Virus record (IMG/VR): IMGVR_UViG_3300025873_000041
Span: 1-25,522 of that record
From: a virus
Direction: 5' to 3' (one strand)
DNA: 25,522 nt
The stretch's first letter is position 1. Each line of letters opens with the position of its first letter. Position numbers and translations under genes: made by a program. The notes under the pieces are model-generated. The model was not told the origin of the DNA. It did not search any database and saw nothing but the letters and a program-made list of their open reading frames with translations. Of the stretch, positions 1 to 25,308 are shown piece by piece.

Positions 1-75
1 TTTTCCTCGGTTTGGTTTATCTTCTCTTCACTCTTCTATTATACATGAACACACTATAGTTTGAAGAGTTATTTC
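1..75 (-). promoter_or_regulatory. Promoter cassette copy 1 (drives a gene left of the window)
   Basis: Read on the minus strand, this is one of five near-identical promoter/leader modules in the window. The -35 is TTCAAA (plus-strand 60-65) and the -10 is TATAAT (38-43), with a 16-bp spacer. Perfect 7-bp inverted arms ACTCTTC and GAAGAGT (63-69 and 30-36) bracket the promoter, 26 bp apart. The leader ends in an ACCGAGG-type ribosome binding site at the window edge, so the controlled gene starts just outside the window. The arms suggest a repressor or activator site, but no binding protein is identified. Confidence 0.75.
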
Positions 76-100
76 GTATTATTTTTCAATAAACCAGGGC

Positions 101-123
101 AAAAAAAAGCCCCCGTGGGGGCT
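101..123 (-). terminator. Intrinsic terminator of the 141-503 gene
   Basis: On the minus strand a GC-rich hairpin (AGCCCC / GGGGCT, plus-strand 108-123) is followed by eight T residues (101-108 as A on the plus strand). It lies 17 bases past the stop of the 141-503 gene and upstream of promoter copy 1, so it closes a one-gene transcription unit. Confidence 0.85.
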
Positions 124-140
124 CGTTTCAGGTTTGGCTT

Positions 141-503
141 TCAGGATGGGATGGAGTTAATTTCCATAAGTCTCTCAACTTCTGATCTGAGTGCATCCAT
201 GAAAAAGGTGGTCTGGGAGATGTTTCCTTGGAACCATTTTCCATTTGTTGTATCTTCGATCATCACCGCGTGATTCGTGGAGCAGATAAAATCAGCTTGA
301 TAGCAACAATCATAATCCATTATGTATTCTTCATTATTGAACCCTCGATCTTCAATTAGCCAGCTTGCATATTTGGTAATTGTTGCTCCATTTTGGAACC
401 GTATCCATTTTCCAGTTTCCCAACTTTTGCTTCTGATGTTGATCCGGATTGGGTTCGCGTTCTCGATTGCTTCTTTGATCTGTTCTATTGTGAGTTTTTT
501 CAT
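141..503 (-). CDS. Hypothetical protein, 120 aa, in a single-gene transcription unit
   Basis: I do not recognise the family. The protein begins with a charged segment (MKKLTIEQIKEAIENANPIR), followed by a mixed alpha/beta-looking body with aromatic residues and a CC pair in the middle (DYDCCYQADF), and a C-terminal amphipathic helix (FFMDALRSEVERLMEI). There is no signal peptide or membrane segment, so it is probably cytoplasmic. The ATG at 503 sits 6 bases after a CCGAGG ribosome binding site in the leader shared with the other cassette genes. It has its own promoter upstream (504-581) and its own terminator downstream (101-123). This one-promoter, one-gene, one-terminator layout matches small early phage genes that act on the host, but that role is inference only. 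Confidence 0.75.
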   Translation of the reverse strand: MKKLTIEQIKEAIENANPIRINIRSKSWETGKWIRFQNGATITKYASWLIEDRGFNNEEYIMDYDCCYQADFICSTNHAVMIEDTTNGKWFQGNISQTTFFMDALRSEVERLMEINSIPS

Positions 504-581
504 TTTGTCCTCGGTTGGTTTAGTGTTTCTTTCTACTCTCTCATCATACCATGTTACAGTATCATTGGAAGAGTTATTTTG
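504..581 (-). promoter_or_regulatory. Promoter cassette copy 2 (drives the 141-503 gene)
   Basis: Minus-strand copy of the repeated promoter module. The -35 is TTCCAA (plus 565-570), the -10 is TATGAT (543-548), and the spacer is 16 bp. The upstream CAAAATAACTCTTCC block is the same as in the copy at 3866. The left arm ACTCTTC is intact (568-574); the right arm at 535-541 is imperfect but is placed at the same 26-bp distance. The module ends in the ACCAACCGAGG leader directly before the ATG at 503. Confidence 0.8.
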
Positions 582-599
582 ATCTTTCTACAAATCAAA

Positions 600-974
600 T
601 TACTCGACCCGCCTTTCACCAGCCGCCCTTCGGATCTTCTCCTCAGTCCGAATGTCTTCCACTGTGATCGCCACATGATCGAGGGTGGATTGTAATTTAT
701 TCAGCGATGCGAAAACGCCCTTCAACTTTCTCTCAATACCATCCGTCAATGAATCTCTGTGTGAATTTATATCTTCAATTACAGCTTGGTAGCGATCCCG
801 CAGATCGGCCAATTCCTTCTCTCTTCGGTCGCGCAGTTCCTCCAACTCCGCAGTAAAATCGGCCAACATCTTGTCTTGCTTTTTGGCAGATTGAATGGAC
901 CCATAAATTAAATAAATAGCAAAAAGCCCAAGGGCTGAGTAGTCCAACAGCGAGCCCAGCAATTGATCGATCAT
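600..974 (-). CDS. Small membrane protein with coiled coil (holin- or spanin-like, uncertain)
   Basis: The 124-residue protein has an N-terminal hydrophobic segment at about residues 10-27 (YSALGLFAIYLIYGSI), then a long charged heptad-like helix at about residues 35-70 (ADFTAELEELRDRREKELAD), and a further helical tail. One membrane pass plus a coiled coil fits phage holin-associated or spanin-like proteins, but nothing in the sequence proves a lysis role. The start at ATG 974 is chosen over an upstream in-frame start because GGAGG lies 6 bases before it. It is the last gene of the left minus-strand operon (replication initiator, HTH protein, adenine methyltransferase). A lytic-enzyme candidate lies elsewhere, at 6252-6854, so lysis genes, if these are such, would be split. 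Confidence 0.7.
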   Translation of the reverse strand: MIDQLLGSLLDYSALGLFAIYLIYGSIQSAKKQDKMLADFTAELEELRDRREKELADLRDRYQAVIEDINSHRDSLTDGIERKLKGVFASLNKLQSTLDHVAITVEDIRTEEKIRRAAGERRVE

Positions 975-1071
975 AGAACCTCCAGCCTCAAATATAGCGC
1001 AGAACCAAGGGGCACAAAAATCGAAAACATTCTCCATCGGTTACAATGTGTTGATCACACATGGGGATACG

Positions 1072-1242
1072 ATGCCGGAAAAAGAGACTACTTTGTCAGC
1101 ATTGATCCCGCTGTTGAAAGAATTCCCGACATTGATTTTGGCCTTGCTCGTTTGGTCTGAACTACGCGAGATCCGAATACAGATTGTGCCTATTTTACAC
1201 AAGCTGGAGACGCGATCTATTGAGTGTAACTCCATCAGATAA
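1072..1242 (+). CDS. Possible small membrane protein on the plus strand (56 aa)
   Basis: This short ORF lies on the opposite strand in the only sizeable gap (975-1247) of the left minus-strand operon. Starting at ATG 1072 it encodes a hydrophobic leucine-rich segment (LSALIPLLKEFPTLILALLV) followed by an amphipathic helix (ELREIRIQIVPILHKLE), a plausible one-pass membrane peptide. A GGGG run lies 5 bases before the ATG; an in-frame ATG at 1048 has no visible ribosome binding site. The minus-strand reading of the same region gives no convincing protein. I see no clear promoter for it. It could be a holin-like or regulatory peptide, or a chance ORF. Confidence 0.42.
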   Translation: MPEKETTLSALIPLLKEFPTLILALLVWSELREIRIQIVPILHKLETRSIECNSIR

Positions 1243-1247
1243 TTTGG

Positions 1248-1718
1248 TTATTTGACAATAGCCGAGAATCGAGGTGTTCTTCTCTTCTCATCAAAAACCA
1301 GTAGACAGGATGGGGCTGGAGCCGAACTTTGTGCTTCCTGGAATTTGATCCGTCCTTTTACCAATCGAATTTCGGCTGACCGCATCGCCCAATCATGCCA
1401 CCACTTTGTGTCGGTACGGGCAAAAGTAAGACATACGACAGTGCAGCCTTTGGTGCTTTCCCAATATGCTTTTTCGATCCATTTTCCAATTTCACGACCA
1501 TAAGGAGGATTGAGCCAAATCGATCCACCAGCGGAGAGCGAACACCAATCCATACTCAGCGCATTTTCGGTCAGATAGGGTACGCACTTATGGTTTTCAT
1601 GGGATGCGGCTGCGTCAAGTACAAAATCGAATTCCTTATTGATCTTGTTGAAGAACGCCCAAGGCGTCCCCCAATCCTGTTTTTTGCTGCTGAATAATTT
1701 ATCATCCGACCAACTCAT
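1248..1718 (-). CDS. Phage DNA N6-adenine methyltransferase (Dam-type, phage_Nmethyl family)
   Basis: Transfers a methyl group from S-adenosylmethionine to the N6 of adenine in DNA. The 156-residue protein matches the compact phage family in length and order: QDWGTP near residues 14-19, the SAM-binding region FVLDAAASHENHKC at 32-45, and the catalytic NPPYG at 70-74. It ends with the usual basic, proline-containing tail. The ATG at 1718 is 6 bases after the stop of the preceding HTH gene, so the two are co-transcribed. Its likely roles are protection against host restriction or timing of replication. GATC sites are conspicuously dense in this window, which would suit a GATC-specific enzyme, but the recognition site cannot be read from the protein. 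Confidence 0.88.
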   Translation of the reverse strand: MSWSDDKLFSSKKQDWGTPWAFFNKINKEFDFVLDAAASHENHKCVPYLTENALSMDWCSLSAGGSIWLNPPYGREIGKWIEKAYWESTKGCTVVCLTFARTDTKWWHDWAMRSAEIRLVKGRIKFQEAQSSAPAPSCLLVFDEKRRTPRFSAIVK

Positions 1719-1724
1719 AATTGT

Positions 1725-2273
1725 TCACCCATCTGTAATCCAGATCCGACCGCCATTGATTACTCGTGGTATTGCTGTCATCCAATCCGACCCGCGCCAG
1801 ATTGGTACAATCGCATTGGGAAAAAGCAATCTTGTACAATGCTGTCCCTCCATCCACTGCGCGATCAATGAGAGACAATTCTTCACCTTTTCATGTTTTG
1901 CGGGGTCATCAAATCGGTGTAGCTGTGCAGATCTGGAAAACCATTTTGTAGATCCACACCATTTGGTAAATGGATCCGCTGCCCATCTACGGTGAAGAGA
2001 ATAGAACATCGCAAGAATTCCCGCCTCTTCCAATGATGGTGATGGAGGTATTTTTGTGCAATATGCATTGACTTTTCGCCCTCCGCGTTTTGTTGTCTGC
2101 AACAGTCCCCGATTTTTCAGTCTGGATGATCCCCGTTTGATGGTCCCCGAATCCAGGCCGGTTACCTCTGCGATCTCTCTGTGGCCAATCTCTGTCTTTG
2201 ATCGAATCGCCAACCAGATCAGGATCTCGCTTTTTGTGCATTTGCTCAATGTCATTATCTCTTCGGGGTTCAT
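1725..2273 (-). CDS. HTH (winged-helix) DNA-binding protein, 182 aa
   Basis: The N-terminal third is a helix-turn-helix of the MarR/DprA-like winged type: KSEILIWLAIRSKTEIGHRE, then IAEVTGLDSGTIKRGSSRLK as the recognition helices, and a basic wing (TTKRGGRKVNAYCT, about residues 60-73). The rest has no family I recognise. The ATG overlaps the stop of the replication-initiator gene by 4 bases (ATGA, 2270-2273), indicating translational coupling. By position it may be a replication accessory protein or operon regulator; in lambda the equivalent slot after O holds P, but no helicase-loader motif is visible here. Confidence 0.72.
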   Translation of the reverse strand: MNPEEIMTLSKCTKSEILIWLAIRSKTEIGHREIAEVTGLDSGTIKRGSSRLKNRGLLQTTKRGGRKVNAYCTKIPPSPSLEEAGILAMFYSLHRRWAADPFTKWCGSTKWFSRSAQLHRFDDPAKHEKVKNCLSLIAQWMEGQHCTRLLFPNAIVPIWRGSDWMTAIPRVINGGRIWITDG

Positions 2274-3112
2274 AGCATCAACCGAAAAAGAATATGCTCT
2301 GTATTCTTGGATTTTATCAACCGACGAAGGTGGCCTGGATCCTCTTTCGGTGGTGGATGATCCTCCAACATCTGTTCAATGTCGGGGTTTTTTCGTAATG
2401 GTGTGAGCTTACAAATAGATGCGGCTTCAATAATTGGGACACATGTTTTCACCCACTCAAAAAGAACTGCGGGAATTCCTCTTGGACATTTGGGTACACC
2501 ATTCGTTTCTGTCTTCAAAGGAATCCAATCCTTTTCTACTTTTTTTAACTCTTTGGGTGCAGGTTTTGCAGGGTCTATAAATTCAGGAAGGGTAATTAAA
2601 TTAATTGTCTCTTCTTTTTCTCTTCCTTCTCTCTTATGGTGTCCGATTTGACAGGTTTTTGTGACAGATATGTCATGTTTACCTGTCAAATATGTCATGT
2701 TCGATTGTCCACTTTGGCATGTTTCTTCGTCCTCCAACCTGTCAGATATGTCATGTTTGTCCGATATGTCAGGTAAACCTGTCACATTTGTCATGTTTTC
2801 CTGTCCTGGTTGACAGGTTTTCCTGTCAGATATGTCATACCTCAAAGCGAGAATAAATCTTTCTTGACTCCTGCAACCTCCCTGGATTACAAATCCATTC
2901 TCTCTGAGCCAAGCCAATCCCCGATAGACTTGGCGATCTGAGATTTTCAGGTTTTCGGCTATTCGGATGATCCTAGGGAATACTGCCCCGGTTCCTCTTA
3001 AATCGTGAGAGACAAGTGAAATATAAACAGCCAGCGCAGATGCTGGTGGTTTTTTACTCATAAGCTGCCCCATTTCATTCATGGTAATCTGGGCAAATGC
3101 TGGTTTCGACAT
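2270..3112 (-). CDS. Replication initiator-like winged-helix protein (lambda O-like)
   Basis: The 280-residue protein starts with a winged helix-turn-helix at about residues 20-85: PPASALAVYISLVSHDLRG, IAENLKISDRQVYRGLAWLR and ENGFVIQGG. This is the layout of phage replisome organisers. The middle, residues about 91-150, is low complexity and repetitive at the protein level (three TCQxG units, several DISD and NMT units) because the DNA beneath it is a cluster of 17-bp iteron-like repeats. The C-terminal part is basic with proline segments. An origin inside the initiator gene is the arrangement of lambda O. It is the first gene of the left minus-strand operon, with the divergent control region 3113-3310 upstream. 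The start at ATG 3112 follows AAAGGATCAAA. The family assignment is by architecture, not by a diagnostic catalytic motif. Confidence 0.75.
   Translation of the reverse strand: MSKPAFAQITMNEMGQLMSKKPPASALAVYISLVSHDLRGTGAVFPRIIRIAENLKISDRQVYRGLAWLRENGFVIQGGCRSQERFILALRYDISDRKTCQPGQENMTNVTGLPDISDKHDISDRLEDEETCQSGQSNMTYLTGKHDISVTKTCQIGHHKREGREKEETINLITLPEFIDPAKPAPKELKKVEKDWIPLKTETNGVPKCPRGIPAVLFEWVKTCVPIIEAASICKLTPLRKNPDIEQMLEDHPPPKEDPGHLRRLIKSKNTEHILFRLML
2662..2838. repeat. Iteron-like repeat cluster inside the initiator gene (candidate origin)
   Basis: Six copies of a repeat with plus-strand consensus CCTGTCAGATATGTCAT occur at 2662-2676 (5' end lost), 2682-2698, 2738-2754, 2758-2771 (variant TGTCCGATATGTCA), 2778-2794 and 2822-2838. 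Extra TGACAGG/CCTGTC half sites lie between and beside them (about 2649 and 2811). The core is a near-dyad, TGACA-N4-TGTCA when the arms are perfect. Spacing is irregular, which argues against CRISPR. The placement inside a winged-helix initiator gene strongly resembles the lambda ori in gene O. Confidence 0.75.
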
Positions 3113-3136
3113 TTTGATCCTTTGGTGTATTCGTGA

Positions 3137-3167
3137 CCAAGGATCAAATGTGATACACTATCCTTGG
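3137..3167. promoter_or_regulatory. Inverted repeat, candidate operator before the initiator gene
   Basis: Perfect 8-bp arms CCAAGGAT (3137-3144) and ATCCTTGG (3160-3167) are separated by 15 bp. The site lies 25-55 bases upstream of the initiator start, where a minus-strand promoter would be expected. There is no T tract after either arm, so a protein-binding site is more likely than a terminator. No promoter consensus is clear enough to fix a start point. Confidence 0.5.
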
Positions 3168-3173
3168 ACATTC

Positions 3174-3217
3174 ACCCGTCGATTTCATGTTTAGCGGCAT
3201 TGATCGACGGGTTTTTG
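3174..3217 (+). terminator. Hairpin with T run, candidate terminator in the divergent region
   Basis: Perfect 10-bp arms ACCCGTCGAT (3174-3183) and ATCGACGGGT (3203-3212) enclose a 19-base loop and are followed on the plus strand by a short T run (3212-3216). A plus-strand terminator here is odd, because the nearest plus-strand gene starts after it, at 3311. It may end a short RNA made from within 3113-3173, or be a protein-binding dyad or attenuator in a minus-strand leader. Confidence 0.5.
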
Positions 3218-3310
3218 TTTGTGGTCATTCCCTGACCGTTGGCTCTTGTTCCGTTTGAAAGCGTTGATGTATATGATACAGTATAACACACTTCACACGG
3301 GGAATTCAAA

Positions 3311-3859
3311 ATGACTACAGATCCGATCTATTTTGTAGACACCGAAACGACGGGACTATCAGCGAAACGACACGAGATAACCGAGATATGTATCCTCCGC
3401 AGACAAGAAGGAGAAGTGGACCGGCAGTGGACTTGGAGGGTAAATCCAGATCGTCTATATATGGCATCACCACGCGCACTTGAAATTAACGGATTTGATA
3501 TGGAGATTTGGGCTGAGACAGGATTGAGCCAATCCGAGGCAGCGAAAGAATGTGCAGAGGTACTTCAATCACCAGGGACTATCGTTGCCCACAATGCACA
3601 GTTCGATCTCAAGTTCCTATATGAATTGATGCACCAGCAACAACAGGCTTTTTCATTCCCAGAAAATGTTGTATGCACCCGAACCCTGGCGCACCAGCTT
3701 TCGAGTGTCACCGGATGGGACAAATGTTCGATGGACGCAATCCGTGGATATATGGGTTGGTCAACCGAAGGAGCCCACACCGCTACGAAAGATGTGGATG
3801 ATTTGGCGAAGCTGTATGATCACCTGATTGGGTTGATTTCAGATCGGGTATCTGTTTGA
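3311..3859 (+). CDS. DnaQ-like 3'-5' exonuclease (DEDDh family)
   Basis: Likely a proofreading-type or nucleic-acid-trimming exonuclease. All five DEDDh residues are visible: D10 and E12 in DTETTG (Exo I), D99 in AHNAQFDLKF (Exo II), and H156 and D161 in HTATKD (Exo III). The length of 182 residues equals a stand-alone exonuclease domain with no polymerase attached. The ATG at 3311 follows GGGGAATTCAAA. It is the first plus-strand gene after the divergent region. A weak promoter can be drawn (TTGAAA at 3255-3260, TACAGT at 3277-3282, 16-bp spacer), which is not a copy of the repeated cassette. Its substrate, host RNA/DNA or phage DNA, cannot be told. Confidence 0.9.
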   Translation: MTTDPIYFVDTETTGLSAKRHEITEICILRRQEGEVDRQWTWRVNPDRLYMASPRALEINGFDMEIWAETGLSQSEAAKECAEVLQSPGTIVAHNAQFDLKFLYELMHQQQQAFSFPENVVCTRTLAHQLSSVTGWDKCSMDAIRGYMGWSTEGAHTATKDVDDLAKLYDHLIGLISDRVSV

Positions 3860-3865
3860 AAGATA

Positions 3866-3937
3866 ATGCAAAATAACTCTTCCAATGTTACTGTGTTATG
3901 GTATGATGATAGTAGACATTAACCACCGAGGCACAAA
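3866..3937 (+). promoter_or_regulatory. Promoter cassette copy 3 (drives 3938-4222)
   Basis: Plus-strand copy of the repeated promoter/leader module, starting 7 bases after the exonuclease stop. The -35 is TTCCAA (3880-3885), the -10 is TATGAT (3902-3907), with a 16-bp spacer and TACTGTGTTATG inside it. The left arm ACTCTTC is present (3876-3882), but the right arm is degraded. The leader ends CCACCGAGGCACAAA before the ATG at 3938. Confidence 0.8.
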
Positions 3938-4222
3938 ATGTTCAAGTTGATTTTAGGACCGAAGCAATACACCAACAATACCCTGCGGCACAGCGGGGAT
4001 TTCACACAAGAAATACTCGTAGATTTTGAAGACGGACAAGAATGCTCATTGGGATTTTTGTCAGCAATGCACGACATTATTTCAGGAGAGATCATCCAGT
4101 GGGTTCTTATCGACTCCAATGGTGATAGTCTTCCGGGTCTTCAAATGTGTTTCAAATCAAAGGAATCAGCAAGAGAGGCAGCGAATTCATTTCTTGTTCA
4201 GTACCTGAAAAGAACGGCATAG
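3938..4222 (+). CDS. Hypothetical protein, 94 aa
   Basis: No family is recognised. The protein is acidic in its first half (LVDFEDGQECSLGFLSAMHD), has a beta-like central segment (IIQWVLIDSNGD) and a C-terminal helix rich in alanine and serine (SKESAREAANSFLVQYL). It is small and soluble by appearance, with no signal peptide or membrane span. It has its own cassette promoter upstream and a strong terminator 25 bases past its stop, making it a single-gene unit like the 141-503 gene. That organisation suggests independent early expression, not a subunit of a larger complex. Confidence 0.75.
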   Translation: MFKLILGPKQYTNNTLRHSGDFTQEILVDFEDGQECSLGFLSAMHDIISGEIIQWVLIDSNGDSLPGLQMCFKSKESAREAANSFLVQYLKRTA

Positions 4223-4246
4223 AAGCAAACTCCAAACCAGACACGA

Positions 4247-4267
4247 GCCCCCTTCGGGGCTTTTTTT
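4247..4267 (+). terminator. Intrinsic terminator after 3938-4222
   Basis: Stem GCCCC (4247-4251) and GGGGC (4256-4260) with a CTTC loop, followed by seven T residues. It separates the 3938-4222 gene from the next promoter cassette. Confidence 0.9.
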
Positions 4268-4289
4268 GTCCGGGCTTATTGTAGAGATA

Positions 4290-4363
4290 ATGCAAAATAA
4301 AGCTTCCAAAGATACTGTGTTCATGTATAATGGAAGAGTAGAACAAACCAACCGAGGCACAAA
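4290..4363 (+). promoter_or_regulatory. Promoter cassette copy 4 (drives 4364-4567)
   Basis: The -35 is TTCCAA (4304-4309) and the -10 is TATAAT (4326-4331), with a 16-bp spacer and an extended -10 TG. The left arm is AAGCTTC (4300-4306), whose CTTC pairs with the perfect GAAGAGT right arm (4333-4339), again 26 bp apart. The leader ends ACCAACCGAGGCACAAA immediately before the ATG. Confidence 0.85.
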
Positions 4364-4567
4364 ATGTTAAACGAAATAATCACCCTTCCATTTTTTCCAT
4401 ACACCGGAAGGGTCGTAAAAGAGCGATTCCAAAATATGGCAGAGATTGAGATTATCGAAACCAACCTTGATCCAGTTGAAAAAACAAACCCTGAATGGGC
4501 GAAGTATATTTATCAAAATCAAGGAAAGAAAATGATATGTCTTCCCTTCGTGTTTACAAGAAAATAA
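4364..4567 (+). CDS. Hypothetical protein, 67 aa
   Basis: A very small protein of unknown function. It has a hydrophobic, aromatic N-terminus (IITLPFFPYTGR), a charged middle (AEIEIIETNLDPVEKTNPEW) and a basic end. There is no clear membrane span. The ATG lies behind the standard cassette ribosome binding site CCGAGG, 7 bases away, which is the main reason to accept it as a gene. Downstream lies a terminator-like hairpin without a T tract, so its transcript probably continues into the 4622-5131 gene. Confidence 0.72.
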   Translation: MLNEIITLPFFPYTGRVVKERFQNMAEIEIIETNLDPVEKTNPEWAKYIYQNQGKKMICLPFVFTRK

Positions 4568-4589
4568 ACCCAAACACTACCTGAAACGA

Positions 4590-4602
4590 GCCCTTCGGGG
4601 GC
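4590..4602 (+). other. Terminator-like hairpin lacking a T tract
   Basis: GCCC (4590-4593) and GGGC (4599-4602) repeat the GCCC-TTCG stem used by the true terminators at 4247 and 5618, but the following bases are ACAACC instead of T. It sits just before the CCACCGAGG ribosome binding site of the 4622 gene, which has no cassette promoter of its own. It looks like a decayed cassette boundary joining two units. Confidence 0.55.
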
Positions 4603-4621
4603 ACAACCACCGAGGAAGAAA

Positions 4622-5131
4622 ATGTTATTGAGCAAACAACACCCCTGGACCGATGGCCGACCAATCAAAGTCATATTCCAGGGCATCGAATATATCGCAC
4701 ATGTACGGTTTTGCTATTTTACAGGAAAGATTGATATGGACATTGTTGGTACTACAAAATCGGTAAACGGACCCAAATATAGATCAAAGGCACACCATGC
4801 CATCGCACAGAAGGTGAAAGTCATGGCGAAAAATGCCGATCTGACCAACGAAGGCGACAAGCCATCAATCGACCGATACTTTAACTTGGATGGCGTATTT
4901 TGGATAAAATCGGGGCGCGCTGACCACTGTAGAAACACCACGAAGACACATGCCTGTATTTCAGGAAGCACCGTGATGCTTTGTGGGGCAAAGCAAGGAG
5001 ATATGTATTGGGATGCTGACGCTGAAGACGTATCTTGCAAACGCTGCCAAAGGGTCATTTCCAATCGGGTCTTGCCTGCGCCCACTATCAACTCAGAGCT
5101 TTCTGCTTCTCTCGGTCGATACTTCAAATAG
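4622..5131 (+). CDS. Hypothetical protein with a C-terminal zinc-binding Cys/His motif
   Basis: The 169-residue protein has an N-terminal half of unknown type with a basic AHHAIAQKVKVMAK helix (about 57-70). The C-terminal half has a likely zinc site, H110, C121, C139 and C142, in the pattern THACISG...LCGA...VSCKRC. This H/C-C-CxxC pattern is common in small phage proteins and usually means a structural zinc knuckle. The function is unknown; nucleic-acid or protein binding is an inference. The ATG at 4622 follows ACCGAGGAAGAAA. It has no promoter cassette of its own and is probably read from the 4290 promoter through the weak hairpin at 4590-4602. Confidence 0.75.
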   Translation: MLLSKQHPWTDGRPIKVIFQGIEYIAHVRFCYFTGKIDMDIVGTTKSVNGPKYRSKAHHAIAQKVKVMAKNADLTNEGDKPSIDRYFNLDGVFWIKSGRADHCRNTTKTHACISGSTVMLCGAKQGDMYWDADAEDVSCKRCQRVISNRVLPAPTINSELSASLGRYFK

Positions 5132-5140
5132 AGGTACATA

Positions 5141-5215
5141 GTGCAAAATAAAGCTTCCAACTGTAGTGTGTTATGCTATAATTGAAGAGTAGAAAGAAAC
5201 CAACCGAGGCACAAA
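5141..5215 (+). promoter_or_regulatory. Promoter cassette copy 5 (drives 5216-5611)
   Basis: The -35 is TTCCAA (5155-5160), the -10 is TATAAT (5177-5182), with a 16-bp spacer and extended TG. The left arm AAGCTTC (5151-5157) and perfect right arm GAAGAGT (5184-5190) are 26 bp apart. The leader ends ACCAACCGAGGCACAAA before the ATG at 5216. Confidence 0.85.
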
Positions 5216-5611: not shown

Positions 5612-5617
5612 ACCACC

Positions 5618-5638
5618 GCCCTTCGGGGCTTTTTTTTT
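5618..5638 (+). terminator. Intrinsic terminator closing the plus-strand region
   Basis: Stem GCCC (5618-5621) and GGGC (5626-5629) with the stable TTCG tetraloop, followed by nine T residues. It is the same stem as at 4247 and, without T residues, at 4590. Confidence 0.9.
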
Positions 5639-5652
5639 GCCCTTTTGCATTA

Positions 5653-5738
5653 TTGCCCACCACCGTCAATCATAGTATTATAGACCTGTGGGGGTGGTTC
5701 CCTGCACACCTTTCGGGGTGTAGTTTTTGGGGGTGGGG
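5653..5738 (+). other. G-rich intergenic region with hairpin and possible short transcript
   Basis: In the convergent gap, a fair promoter can be drawn on the plus strand: TTGCCC (5653-5658), 17 bp, TATTAT (5676-5681). It is followed by a hairpin ACACC/GGTGT (5706-5721) with five T residues (5724-5728), giving a predicted RNA of about 45 bases. A similar motif, GGGGGTGG then TTCC, occurs on both sides (about 5690 and 5729). The four G runs (5690, 5715, 5729, 5735) could form a quadruplex. It might be a small RNA, a terminator region, or part of a packaging site. Confidence 0.35.
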
Positions 5739-5814
5739 TTCCTCGGCTCTGCCCCCTCTTCTATTTTTAGCATCAGATCCAATAGCGTCATTTCTGCGTG
5801 ATTGATAAAAACGA

Positions 5815-6854: not shown

Positions 6855-8476
6855 CTTTTCTCCCTTCCGGACAGGATCCCAAGTTGGAGAACACACGAAG
6901 CCGATCCGAATACATACGAACAATTCAAAACCATCGCTCGCTGTGCATTGAATGAATTCCCGCGCCCCATATAAAGCCCGGATAGAAACTGACTTGTGAT
7001 CTCTACCACATCACCCGCGCACAGTATCGCGAATTTGAGCCCAACTCTCAATACCAGTTTTTCAGATGGGTAAAAATCCCACCCTTTCATACGATTGAGA
7101 TCACCAACCGCCATCTCATTTCTTTTCTCTGCACCTGTCCCATCATCATCATCATACACAAACCGGAGATCCCGTACTGTCTCTTGTATATACGGAAGAG
7201 ATGGAACACGATTATTTGTAAAGTTAGATGCTGCCGGTGTCATTGTTGACGCACCATTATATTGGGGCACGATGTTTGCCAAAACATTTGCATAGTGGTT
7301 TTGAATACTTGAATTGTAGAATTCATGCGTGATAATCTCCTGAATGTCAGAAGTATTGATCCGCGCTGCAACCGTTGGCTCATATCCCATCTCAAGACCA
7401 GTGGGATCCGAACAACCTCGCCAAGAAACATAACCCTGTCTTTGTACTGGCCATTGACCAGCCGAAGAAGACAATCCAATCAGATCACGAAAACCACCCG
7501 CCCAAGGTGAGGTTATTGCATGGCTCCACCGATAACGGGTAGATCCATCTGACCTTTTTATCAATGGCCCATTTATACTGTGTGCATCAAAGTTATCGTA
7601 AATCCCCGCCCCATACATTCCACCAATTCCCCAATGACCGGGATAAACGTCAAAGGGTCCATTTGCTCCCGTTCCAGTTGAATCGATCAGCATTCCCATT
7701 ATCACCCACGGATAACCCCGAACCCATGGACAATACTTTATTGTTGATCCACTGCTCAGTGTTCCCACTGCAACATTCCCCACCGGATAATCCACACCCG
7801 CAACACCCGATAATTCAATCGCTGTTTTTCCGGTGTATTTGACGAAAAAGTAATCCGTCGCACTCGTGAAACATTGCACCAACGCCTGGCCGCCTGTAGG
7901 CAGATCCCAATCAAGAGCCGCAGTAACGTCCATCGTCGTATCGACTGTGTTCCAGGTTGATGTTGTTGTTGTTGTTGCTCCCGCTCGATTGAAAAGCTGG
8001 AATTTATCATATCCAAGAGGATACACCCCGGCCCGAACGTGATTGTTTAGCCTATTCTGAAAAGTAGAGATGAGATCACGAAAGGTAAGACGCCAAACAC
8101 CACGAGATCCAGATAATCCATCAAGAGACCCCATTGCGATACGCTCAAAACCTGAAAAGCCATTTAGCCGACAGTGCAACTCTGCAAATTGGCCGCGTCG
8201 GATATACCCTGCAATGTCCCGAATGTCACCGACCAAACCCACCGACCATCCCCCGAAAGAAACAGACCACCGTTGAGGAATTACCGTCGTTCCTTGAACC
8301 TGGACAGATCCAGCATCTATTTTGATACGTTTGGTTTGTACTGGCCAAGTTACCCCGGTGGATCCAAGGGTGATCCCATCTCCAACAGATCCATATACCT
8401 CTACAAACTTCAATTCAAATTCTGGTACGATTGACCCAGAACCTAAACCAGCAACAAAATCAGTAGACCAACCCAC
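6851..8476 (-). CDS. Tail hub / baseplate-like minor tail protein
   Basis: The 541-residue virion protein lies directly after the distal tail protein in the canonical siphovirus order (tape measure, distal tail, hub). It is rich in Gly, Ser, Thr and aromatic residues and looks beta-structured throughout. The last quarter (LVLRVGLKFAILCAGDVVEI, about 480-500) resembles tail hub proteins in which a beta domain is followed by a loading/coat motif. A run of TTTTTSTWNTVDTTM (about 172-186) may be a linker. It probably caps the tail tube and anchors receptor-binding or peptidoglycan-cutting parts. The start is GTG 8476, three bases past the preceding stop, with GGGATGA upstream. No enzymatic motif is seen. 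Confidence 0.72.
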   Translation of the reverse strand: MGWSTDFVAGLGSGSIVPEFELKFVEVYGSVGDGITLGSTGVTWPVQTKRIKIDAGSVQVQGTTVIPQRWSVSFGGWSVGLVGDIRDIAGYIRRGQFAELHCRLNGFSGFERIAMGSLDGLSGSRGVWRLTFRDLISTFQNRLNNHVRAGVYPLGYDKFQLFNRAGATTTTTSTWNTVDTTMDVTAALDWDLPTGGQALVQCFTSATDYFFVKYTGKTAIELSGVAGVDYPVGNVAVGTLSSGSTIKYCPWVRGYPWVIMGMLIDSTGTGANGPFDVYPGHWGIGGMYGAGIYDNFDAHSINGPLIKRSDGSTRYRWSHAITSPWAGGFRDLIGLSSSAGQWPVQRQGYVSWRGCSDPTGLEMGYEPTVAARINTSDIQEIITHEFYNSSIQNHYANVLANIVPQYNGASTMTPAASNFTNNRVPSLPYIQETVRDLRFVYDDDDGTGAEKRNEMAVGDLNRMKGWDFYPSEKLVLRVGLKFAILCAGDVVEITSQFLSGLYMGRGNSFNAQRAMVLNCSYVFGSASCVLQLGILSGREKR

Positions 8477-17149: not shown

Positions 17150-17887
17150 CTATTGGCTCAAAAAAGCAGCAAGAGCCGCAAGGTGAAAATCTTTTTCCTC
17201 GGTCTCATCTATGGTTTCGGTTTCTTCCTCGATCTCGTCTTCAATCTCTTCGTCTTCCGGATACTCTTCAACAGGCTTGGCAAAAGTGATCGTTATACTT
17301 TCTTCATTCTCTGTTAGATCCAGGATATGTCGAAGTTTGAGAGAAGGTATCGCGCCAATCTCACCCCGGACAATTGATCGAATCCTTGCATCCAGATCAT
17401 CATTTGATCGAGCAGATATAGACGCATCGGGATTGGCCGGAATAGTCACGATTGATACCTCCAGTAATTCAGAACTTGAAAAATATGTGCCCTTGTTTTC
17501 ACTGTGGTATCTGTGATCGGATGGTAGTTTTGAGCGCGGGGTAAATTCAACCGCTCGAAAACCCACTGATACCGAATGAAGAAAACCCGCGTCAACCTTT
17601 CGGGCTATCTCCCTTCCAATCCCATCATCGCCAGTATCGAATTCAACATCAATCTCAAGAGCCCCATCTCGCACCTCAACCAAACCGCGACCTATCGGAA
17701 GCGACATTGGATTATGGTTGAGTAAAACAACGGGGTTGCTTTTGTAGCTTTCCAGGTTCCAGCCTTCTTGGTTTATTATATCCCCATAGCGATCTTCGTT
17801 ATCAGTTGAGGCGACAAAACTAACGACACTACCGCTATTGTTTCCAGCCGCTTCTTTTCTCTCAATTGATAGTGCTTTTTTTATCAT
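17150..17887 (-). CDS. Prohead maturation protease (HK97 family, peptidase U35)
   Basis: Serine protease that cleaves the scaffolding domain of the capsid protein during head maturation. Visible family features are the opening ASTDNEDRYGDIINQEGW (about 26-43), the catalytic histidine H58 in VVLLNHNPMSLPIGR, and the catalytic serine S107 in LHSVSVGF. The conserved LLEVSIVTIPANPDA follows at about residues 141-155. After residue ~205 comes a very acidic tail (EDEEIEDEIEEETETIDETE), longer than usual and possibly an internal scaffold or self-cleaved segment. The 245-residue length is somewhat above the family norm. It precedes the capsid gene by 13 bases. Its start is separated from the MuF gene by the oppositely oriented RusA gene. 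Confidence 0.9.
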   Translation of the reverse strand: MIKKALSIERKEAAGNNSGSVVSFVASTDNEDRYGDIINQEGWNLESYKSNPVVLLNHNPMSLPIGRGLVEVRDGALEIDVEFDTGDDGIGREIARKVDAGFLHSVSVGFRAVEFTPRSKLPSDHRYHSENKGTYFSSSELLEVSIVTIPANPDASISARSNDDLDARIRSIVRGEIGAIPSLKLRHILDLTENEESITITFAKPVEEYPEDEEIEDEIEEETETIDETEEKDFHLAALAAFLSQ

Positions 17888-21873: not shown

Positions 21874-22315
21874 CCAGGTCCACCACCGGACCATCAATCA
21901 TTGGAGAGATCACACGATCTGCATCTTCAATCTCTTTCCGTAATTCTTCAACGCTCAAGATTTCGCTATCTGCTTCCACCGAGACCGACAGTGACATTTC
22001 ACGACGATAACCATGACGACGTTCAAGCATCCATGCTGCGGCTTGCCAGGATCCTTCCATAGCTGCATTCTGTATCAGTGCGAGCGACTTGATAGCAGAT
22101 TGAGACTCCGCTTGATCAACATCACGAACAAATTCAGCAAAGTCAGATTCCTGGTCTTGATCTCGTCTTCCTCTACTCATCCAGGATTGTAATGTTCTGA
22201 GTGGGATCCCTGCGTATGCGGATGCTATCTCTCTTGTACTTCCAACCCTTGTCGCCTCGATTACTCGCTTTTTTCTGTCTGCTGTGAATTTACTTGGTCG
22301 CCCCGGTTTTCCCAT
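21866..22315 (-). CDS. terS: Terminase small subunit
   Basis: Binds the packaging site and guides TerL. The 149-residue protein has the common opening GKPGRPSKFTADRKKRVIEA followed by an HTH (REIASAYAGIPLRTLQSWMS, about 28-47), then an acidic helical oligomerisation region (SDFAEFVRDVDQAESQSAIK) and AAAWMLERRHGYRRE, which is usual for this group. The ATG at 22315 is preferred over an in-frame GTG at 22324 because AGGTGAAGG lies at proper distance. It overlaps the 3' end of the TAGT glycosyltransferase gene by 26 bases and the start of TerL by 8, so modification and packaging genes are translationally linked. Confidence 0.88.
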   Translation of the reverse strand: MGKPGRPSKFTADRKKRVIEATRVGSTREIASAYAGIPLRTLQSWMSRGRRDQDQESDFAEFVRDVDQAESQSAIKSLALIQNAAMEGSWQAAAWMLERRHGYRREMSLSVSVEADSEILSVEELRKEIEDADRVISPMIDGPVVDLDD

Positions 22316-23225
22316 TGCCTTCACCTTTTCTGTGCAGTCCCATCCCGTAATTATTCGGTGTTTTCTCTACGTCATAATCCTCGCGACGGAGCAGTTTGTT
22401 TCTCTTGAATGGTCTATAGTCCACATGGTGATGGACACGACCGAATCTGAATACTACTTTTGAAACGTCAGGATGAGCATCAACCAGCATTTGTGATTTG
22501 GCTACAGTCCCGGTTTTTGAGTATTTTTCTCCTTTTGCCCTGTCTTCTGGCACATATATCTCTTCGGTATTTCCTCCTTTCATTATTTGGGTGGGCGTTT
22601 TTTGTTGTAAAAAGGCATTGAATAAAACAGTACACCAACCGGCTTTCAGCATATCCAGGGAAAGAATGGTGTCTTCGTTATACCGACCACGCCAACGAAA
22701 AGGCACATCATTTCTTATGAAATTACAGCTATATATTCGCCTGTTGGCAACGAACGGTGGGTATACATCTCGCGACGGGCAAAACATAAAATACTGTGGA
22801 CCTGCCATTGCGATATTTTTATACCGTTTACAAAAATCCTCCATGGCAAAAAAGATTGCACGGTCGCTCACTCGGATCCTTCTATTTTTGTGGAACCTGT
22901 AGAATGATCGAATGTTGTCATCCATAGTCCAGTGATAATCATGGCCGCTCGCAATCGAATGGTCCCAAATGAAGTTTCGGGCTGGTCCCGCACCAGTGCC
23001 CATATTGTCGGTGCCGAAGTCATCCAATAGATCATACTTTTCTTTGTATGTCAGATCCATGCAGAGCAGCTTTTTCTTGTCCACTCCGTTTTCCCGATAG
23101 TAGTCGTATTCCTGGGGCTCGATTACCAATAGATAATCGATACCGATAGAATCAAAATACCGCGCGGTTAGTCTTCTCTCTATTTCCGCTCGGCCTTTGC
23201 TCGGTATGTAAATCGGAGGAATCAA
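22290..23225 (-). CDS. TET-associated glycosyltransferase (TAGT)-like DNA-base glycosyltransferase
   Basis: The 311-residue protein matches phage TAGTs in order: an opening YIPSKGRA (6-13), LLVIEPQEYDYYRENG (32-47), GPARNFIWDH (80-89), the metal-binding WTMDDNI (99-105; D102, D103), RWRGRYNEDTILSLDMLKAG (177-196) with E184/D185 as possible catalytic residues, and the C-terminal HHHVDYRPFKRN. In the known systems such enzymes attach sugars to hydroxymethylated cytosines made by a phage TET-like oxygenase. No such oxygenase or DNA cytosine methyltransferase is seen in this window. The TTG start (23225) overlaps the ParB stop by four bases and has GGAGG 10 bases upstream. It overlaps TerS downstream, linking it to packaging. 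A sugar transfer to another target cannot be excluded. Confidence 0.85.
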   Translation of the reverse strand: MIPPIYIPSKGRAEIERRLTARYFDSIGIDYLLVIEPQEYDYYRENGVDKKKLLCMDLTYKEKYDLLDDFGTDNMGTGAGPARNFIWDHSIASGHDYHWTMDDNIRSFYRFHKNRRIRVSDRAIFFAMEDFCKRYKNIAMAGPQYFMFCPSRDVYPPFVANRRIYSCNFIRNDVPFRWRGRYNEDTILSLDMLKAGWCTVLFNAFLQQKTPTQIMKGGNTEEIYVPEDRAKGEKYSKTGTVAKSQMLVDAHPDVSKVVFRFGRVHHHVDYRPFKRNKLLRREDYDVEKTPNNYGMGLHRKGEGNGKTGATK

Positions 23226-24792: not shown

Positions 24793-25040
24793 TTGGGCAC
24801 TTCGACCCAGCAATCCACACAACTACCGAAAAGGATCAATCGGGTTCGCTCGTATTTAACCGGATCTCCACCACCGTTTTTTGCCGGTGGATTTACATTG
24901 ACTGAATAGTCATTCCCTTCTGGGATCTTCAATAATCGCGACGAACCATCTTGAGCCCAGAATACGTTTTTCTCTTTTGCTACAGCGTCGAGCGCAATCC
25001 GGTGAGTAATCTTCGCCAACAACATTGGGGTGATTTTCAT
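24789..25040 (-). CDS. Hypothetical protein, 83 aa
   Basis: Unknown function. A helical N-terminus (MKITPMLLAKITHRIALDAV) precedes a probably beta-structured part (RLLKIPEGNDYSVNVNPP) with a Gly-rich turn and a final RLILFGSCVDCWVEV that holds a CxxC. The single CxxC is not enough to call a zinc site. The ATG overlaps the stop of the ribbon-helix-helix gene by four bases (25037-25040) and its own stop overlaps the next ATG, so it is firmly inside a translationally coupled operon, which is the best evidence that it is real. Confidence 0.7.
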   Translation of the reverse strand: MKITPMLLAKITHRIALDAVAKEKNVFWAQDGSSRLLKIPEGNDYSVNVNPPAKNGGGDPVKYERTRLILFGSCVDCWVEVPK

Positions 25041-25267
25041 TTCTCTACCTCCAATGTTTCCAATGTTTCCAGGAACCTATCCAGTGCAAGCCTGACGATC
25101 CCTCCTCTGGACAGTGAGCGATCCTGGTTAATTAAGTCATCCATAATTTTGATAGTAGATGCTTTGAACCGAACAGACATTGTCCATCTTCGGTCTTCTG
25201 GATTGTGCATCGGTCTTCCACCACGGGTTCCCGCGCGGATAAGCAGTTTGTCTTCCTCGGTCAGCAT
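25037..25267 (-). CDS. Ribbon-helix-helix (CopG/Arc-like) DNA-binding protein
   Basis: The 76-residue protein contains a short strand RWTMSVRFKAS (27-37), helix TIKIMDDLINQ and helix SRGGIVRLALDRFLETL, the strand-helix-helix layout of Arc/MetJ/CopG regulators that dimerise and bind DNA with the strand. It is probably a transcriptional regulator. A GAGGGAG ribosome binding site lies 6 bases before the ATG at 25267. Upstream, the minus strand reads TATGATACAGTAACAC, similar to a sequence before the exonuclease gene (about 3272-3289), which might be a shared operator, possibly for this protein; that link is speculative. Confidence 0.78.
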   Translation of the reverse strand: MLTEEDKLLIRAGTRGGRPMHNPEDRRWTMSVRFKASTIKIMDDLINQDRSLSRGGIVRLALDRFLETLETLEVEK

Positions 25268-25308
25268 TTCTTCTCCCTCGTGTTACTGTATCATAGTTCA
25301 GTTGATTT

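Follow-up and report, generated by a model that had tools for sequence, protein, structure and literature searches.

The joints between small phage genes can carry regulatory sequence. The PeSLs of T4-type phages, in work attributed to Arbiol in 2010 and Comeau in 2014, are reportedly composite promoter-terminator motifs that form 'mobile regulatory cassettes'. In phage lambda, the operator OR1 is located inside the promoter PR, between its -35 and -10 hexamers. In the virus SIRV2, one consensus regulatory sequence precedes most of the early accessory genes, which are of unknown function, and shut-off of the early genes has been proposed to involve Aca8, a small DNA-binding protein with a winged helix-turn-helix (PMC11065993). 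Repeated sites at phage genes also include the start-associated repeats (SAS/ESAS) of cluster K mycobacteriophages, which are numerous at small genes, half of them with 17-bp inverted repeats, and whose consensus is subcluster-specific (PMC3203893), and the operators of cluster A phages, in which the same operator occurs at several phage promoters and stoperators are spread (PMC6550527). Here we describe five promoter cassettes in an entire IMG/VR contig of 25,522 bases, IMGVR_UViG_3300025873_000041 (hereafter the window), whose closest known counterparts are the T4 PeSLs and the SIRV2/Aca8 early regulon. Between the -35 and -10 hexamers lies a 17-bp core, TTACTGTGTTATGGTAT, that is kept in a related phage. 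We consider it rather probable, judging from sequence, that the cassettes are sigma70-type early promoters with a shared repressor operator, probably shut by an autoregulated ribbon-helix-helix (RHH) protein, and that they also act as joints for recombination. Support is good for the cassette and moderate for the operator, and we infer the RHH protein as the binder of the latter.

All five copies are present on the strands and at the positions given by an original prediction made from the sequence of this contig:

1..75, minus strand: cassette W1; -35 TTCAAA at 65-60, core at 57-41, -10 TATAAT at 43-38, ACCGAGG at 11-5; gene beyond the contig end
504..581, minus strand: cassette W2; -35 TTCCAA at 570-565, core at 562-546 (ATACTGTAACATGGTAT), -10 TATGAT at 548-543, ACCGAGG at 515-509, ATG at 503
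3866..3937, plus strand: cassette W3; -35 TTCCAA at 3880-3885, core at 3888-3904, -10 TATGAT at 3902-3907, ACCGAGG at 3925-3931
4290..4363, plus strand: cassette W4; -35 TTCCAA at 4304-4309, core at 4312-4328, -10 TATAAT at 4326-4331, ACCGAGG at 4351-4357
5141..5215, plus strand: cassette W5; -35 TTCCAA at 5155-5160, core at 5163-5179, -10 TATAAT at 5177-5182, ACCGAGG at 5203-5209

As predicted, the -35-like hexamer (TTCCAA in four copies, TTCAAA in W1) is followed after exactly 16 bp by TATAAT or TATGAT. Exact matches to TTCMAA-N16-TATRAT number five in the window against 0.02 expected, and all lie inside cassettes; these -35 hexamers match TTGACA at only about three of six positions. The predicted leader with ACCGAGG is found in all five copies, but W1 leaves the contig, so that its ATG and gene are not visible, and the assignment of one gene to each cassette needs amending at W4, which precedes two genes (67 and 169 aa) with a hairpin between them. 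The repeat is also larger than first described, as W1 and W4 match across 108 nt, upstream terminator included. A terminase search led to a relative, IMGVR_UViG_3300024520_000357 (G002; 30,088 bp), which is syntenic with the window at a DNA identity of about 70-86% and carries seven cassettes in the same early region, R1-R4 after the exonuclease gene and R5-R7 on the other arm. W3, immediately 3' of the exonuclease stop, is the orthologue of R1. The 16-bp spacing, exact in the window copies, becomes 18 bp in two G002 cassettes if TTG is taken as the -35.

Alignment of all twelve cassettes (five from the window, seven from G002), anchored on the -10, locates the conserved block between the hexamers, in the spacer core TACTGTGTT..(G)TA, and not in the flanking arms emphasized by the original prediction. 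Conservation of the spacer columns TACTGTGTT almost reaches that of the -10 hexamer, whereas conservation of the -35 and the arms does not. The core, at columns -14 to +2 counted from the -10, occupies the spacer together with the first bases of the -10. Over the core segment (-14 to +5), identity is 0.73 within the window, 0.71 within G002 and 0.73 between them; the corresponding values for the upstream segment (-40 to -15) are 0.76, 0.34 and 0.35. Likewise, the orthologous pair W3/R1 agrees at 93% over the first 14 bases after the -10 and at 38% in the upstream half. Thus, the core has been held in both phages, and the -35 half has become alike across the window copies, through either gene conversion or adaptation to a factor specific to the phage, between which the data do not decide. 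Elsewhere in viral contigs, the exact core TASTGTGTTCATGTATAAT has five matches besides G002 (L040-L042 among them being one identical sequence), mostly in coding sequence, which we read as chance.

The core also recurs, in weaker form, at two other promoters, one of which belongs to a candidate repressor gene:

3278..3294, minus strand: core-like site GAAGTGTGTTATACTGT in the exonuclease promoter, in opposite orientation; kept in G002 as GAACCGTGTTATATTCC
25283..25299, plus strand: core-like site TTACTGTATCATAGTTC overlapping the promoter of the RHH-like gene; present upstream of the G002 RHH gene as TTACTGTATCACGTTTT
25037..25267, minus strand: RHH-like protein of 76 aa, candidate repressor; weak assignment

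A matrix built from the twelve cassette cores was used to score upstream regions, 30 in the window and 14 in G002. In the window, the reverse strand of W2 came first, followed by the exonuclease and the RHH-like gene as the best non-cassette regions (p about 0.005 each), and the same two were again the best of the 14 regions in G002 (p 0.016 and 0.030). In either phage, the region upstream of the RHH-like gene ranks in the top two outside the cassettes. Its site in the window, TTACTGTATCATAGTTC, shares TACTGTATCATAGT (14 bases) with cassette R6 of G002, which has a second, overlapping core, CTACTGTATCATAGTAT, carrying TACTGTATCATAGT. The RHH-like protein, which is 68% identical between the window and G002 and whose promoter carries a core-like site, is in our view the best repressor candidate.

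Each joint includes more than a promoter, and a promoterless form also occurs:

107..124, minus strand: intrinsic terminator belonging to the repeated unit, upstream of W1
4245..4262, plus strand: intrinsic terminator belonging to the repeated unit, upstream of W4
4582..4624, plus strand: second cassette type, with a vestigial TGAAACGAG, hairpin CCCTTCGGGG without a T-run, leader ACCGAGG and ATG; no promoter
5612..5637, plus strand: terminator GCCCTTCGGGGCTTTTTTTT, 3' of the 131-aa gene

In G002 the unit runs from stop codon and terminator through promoter and leader to ATG; a typical joint reads TGAAACGAGCCC-TTCG-GGGCTTTTTTTTTGCCC...promoter...AACCAACCGGGG...ATG, and its TGA is the own stop codon of three G002 genes. 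In the window, TGAAACGAG is unused and stands as a vestige behind the earlier stops of two genes, which we take as a footprint of gene exchange. The two genes behind W4 are separated by the hairpin without a T-run (4589-4602) and then the promoterless leader, and window 4591-4624 is identical to G002 7065-7098 over 34 nt, each before an unrelated gene. A different 140-nt element lies once in the window (5614-5759) and at 1-137 and 29718-29856 in G002, with 97.8% identity. It combines a terminator, a promoter-like TTGCCC-N17-TATTAT and G-rich hairpins ending in a strong stem; one copy lies ahead of a tail-fibre-like gene, and there is one compensatory pair change. An Rfam search that included this element returned no match; perhaps it represents another type of joint, one whose leader is structured.

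The genes behind the cassettes, and the conserved genes beside them, are as follows:

141..503, minus strand: cargo of W2, 120 aa, no family in the Pfam/PHROG scan
3938..4222, plus strand: cargo of W3, 94 aa, no family in the Pfam/PHROG scan
4364..4567, plus strand: cargo of W4, 67 aa, no family in the Pfam/PHROG scan
4622..5131, plus strand: second gene behind W4, 169 aa, no family, no phage relative
5216..5611, plus strand: cargo of W5, 131 aa, no family, no phage relative
3311..3859, plus strand: DnaQ-like exonuclease, conserved neighbour, 86% in G002
2270..3112, minus strand: O-like replication initiator, with ATGTCA-type repeats inside the gene (2640-2842)

None of the cargo genes has a Pfam or PHROG family or a match in PADLOC, a defence-system library, the two tested for phage relatives (169 and 131 aa) have none, and no recognisable counterparts exist between the cargo of the window and that of G002. 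The neighbouring genes, by contrast, are conserved between the two phages (145-aa protein 97%, helix-turn-helix (HTH) protein 79%, initiator 71%, exonuclease 86%). Constant joints with differing cargo support a co-regulated, exchangeable gene set: the relative keeps the switch with other genes behind it, so that the switch would mark genes that can be swapped and are probably early. The original prediction had seen here a set of early genes under coordinate control, with multiple-operator logic, and both the cassettes at the same place in G002 and the recurrence of the core at two other promoters speak for such control of what are probably early genes. The 94-aa cargo of W3 (w94, 3938-4222) and G002 cargo g57, g70 and g103 seemingly have in common a weak C-terminal F-x-[ST]-[KR]-x-EA-x-x-[FW], a likeness that is not significant by phmmer.

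How, then, do these cassettes compare with described systems? As in T4 PeSLs, repeated intergenic units of stem-loop or terminator plus early promoter separate exchangeable small genes; the composite of terminator and promoter is repeated between genes (the 108-nt repeat and the G002 units), and the cargo between conserved joints varies to the point that the window and G002 have no homologous cargo. Unlike the T4 case, however, the phage here is small, siphovirus-type and not a T4-like myovirus (its portal, terminase and tail genes are of another type), and the cassettes have a conserved spacer core, a standard leader to the ATG and a promoterless hairpin-leader form. The likeness to SIRV2/Aca8 is that one consensus sequence stands at several accessory genes (five and seven cassettes), although that system has archaeal TATA/BRE promoters and a winged HTH protein, while ours has bacterial-type hexamers and an RHH-like candidate and is known from sequence alone. 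SAS/ESAS resemble the cassettes in lying at the starts of small genes, but the repeats here include promoter and terminator, and the 13-bp SAS consensus GGGATAGGAGCCC has a single match in coding sequence, not beyond chance. The core resembles lambda PR/OR1 in position only, in spacer and -10, and the same operator-like site at several promoters recalls cluster A, except that the sites here are promoter-bound and not spread stoperators. No CI/Cro pair was seen among the window proteins scanned; the contig lacks about 2 kb of G002, between its two ends, where G002 has early genes, and G002 has one Cro-like HTH. More distantly, L050 and L051 (50% terminase relatives, the two examined out of four) have another leader, AACAACGGAGA, common to several genes with unlike promoters; it sits behind TATAAT boxes, some with TTATGCGCATA, and is possibly the same habit in a different sequence.

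We postulate that each copy would be a full regulatory joint connecting two small genes, made up of the upstream gene end and intrinsic terminator, a sigma70-type promoter with a poor -35 and a good -10, the 17-bp operator-like core, and a short leader bearing the CCGAGG ribosome site. Transcription of each small gene by host RNA polymerase would begin separately, early after infection, and an accumulating phage repressor would then occupy the core in the way that lambda repressors occupy OR1 within PR, closing all cassettes, the exonuclease promoter and its own gene together; the joints, because they are nearly alike, might double as homology for gene swapping. Several points weigh against this reading. 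Core conservation rests on two phages, as one other genome with the early region was found. The symmetry of the core is weak, its best pair being equalled in 124 of 200 (4 bp) and 27 of 200 (7 bp) permutations, and since symmetry alone is no proof, the core draws its support from conservation and recurrence. None of the p-values at the exonuclease and RHH sites is significant by itself once corrected, and the two phages being compared are homologous. The assignment to RHH is weak: the Pfam hit (RHH_1, E=0.038) comes from a single homologue, that of G002, the strand-helix-helix model has low confidence (pLDDT 56), and a PDB sequence search with the RHH pair returned no RHH chain. Finally, G002 encodes a Cro-like HTH protein (L035 7751-7999, beside the RHH gene) that could act as regulator in that phage and that the window lacks at the matching position. 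Alternatively, the cassettes might be alike merely by recent duplication or recombination, as spacer modules of the T4 PeSL kind with no dedicated regulator, to which we give perhaps one chance in a few. The repeated unit does contain a stop codon and terminator, the joints are constant and the cargo variable, 34 nt are identical between phages before unrelated genes, and the -35 half is homogenised in the window even though the orthologues W3/R1 share 93% of the initial leader. Neutral homogenisation, however, would hit core and flanks alike, whereas the core alone is equally conserved between phages and recurs without the remaining cassette at the exonuclease and RHH promoters.

Reading of the core by an activator or a phage-encoded sigma factor would fit the weak -35, which would need help, matching TTGACA at about half of its positions and lying in the half that differs between phages. 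We nevertheless hold this to be unlikely: no sigma factor or RNA polymerase gene was seen among the proteins scanned (a subset of open reading frames), and the core overlaps the -10 and is reversed at the exonuclease and RHH promoters, features that fit an operator better. Least probable is the proposal of the original prediction, in which two 7-bp arms, spaced by 26 bp in a 33-bp repeat, would be linked across the promoter by a dimeric protein. W1 does have the perfect ACTCTTC/GAAGAGT, and some G002 cassettes have the left CTCTT and parts of the right arm. The exact CTTC-N26-GAAG, though, is found in three copies (1, 4 and 5) and not in the four claimed, the right side reading AGAG in copy 2 and TAGT in copy 3, and the window has one extra match, at 17302, in coding sequence. 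Of the two arms, the left one shares positions with the -35 hexamer, and the right one falls where transcription is expected to start. Among inverted pairs of the window copies, the arms come second (4 bp) and fourth (7 bp), but column permutation of the same five copies (200 trials) gave equally good pairs in 178 (4 bp) and 109 (7 bp) trials; in G002 the arms rank 438 of 1952 (4 bp) and 599 of 1596 (7 bp), are shifted by 2 bp in R2, and lack the left member in R4-R7. Given the permutation and the poor rank in G002, we reject the arms as operator.

The virus is a small, siphovirus-type bacterial phage that was previously undescribed, with no DNA match among 50,697 phage records. The proteins scanned include a Phage_portal-type portal, terminase, capsid protease, tail genes and a Dam-type methyltransferase, in addition to the O-like initiator and DnaQ-like exonuclease; neither an integrase nor a CI-like repressor was seen among them. 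The terminase search also yielded G001 and G003, neither of which has the early region, and another four contigs at a greater distance (50%). G002 was the sole match when the initiator-associated HTH and RHH proteins served as baits, and the patterns CTTCCAA..TATRAT and hairpin-leader had no match besides it. No host was found in genome contigs searched with terminase or portal. Inside the initiator gene, the ATGTCA/CTGTCA-type repeats (window 2640-2842) are kept in G002 and are probably lambda-like origin iterons within the gene. Elsewhere, a TET-associated glycosyltransferase (TAGT; window 22290-23225, Pfam E=2e-36) adjoins a ParB-like gene, and at the corresponding place G002 has a ParB-like protein that apparently continues into a DNA methyltransferase, a context that suggests DNA hypermodification.

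It is tempting to go further and picture, tentatively, an exchangeable island of host-takeover or counter-defence genes, each clipped into a standard joint of stop, terminator, operator/promoter and ribosome site and silenced by one autoregulated RHH protein, with the -35 half changing in concert within a phage and the core fixed between phages. In archaeal viruses, a common early promoter has helped to locate anti-defence genes (PMC11065993). In the same way, the cassette could serve as bait, flagging small orphan genes of an uncultured phage lineage beyond the reach of homology annotation. Because only one half of the joint changes in concert within a phage, these phages also offer a natural setting in which to ask what keeps joints alike, recombination or their DNA-binding protein.

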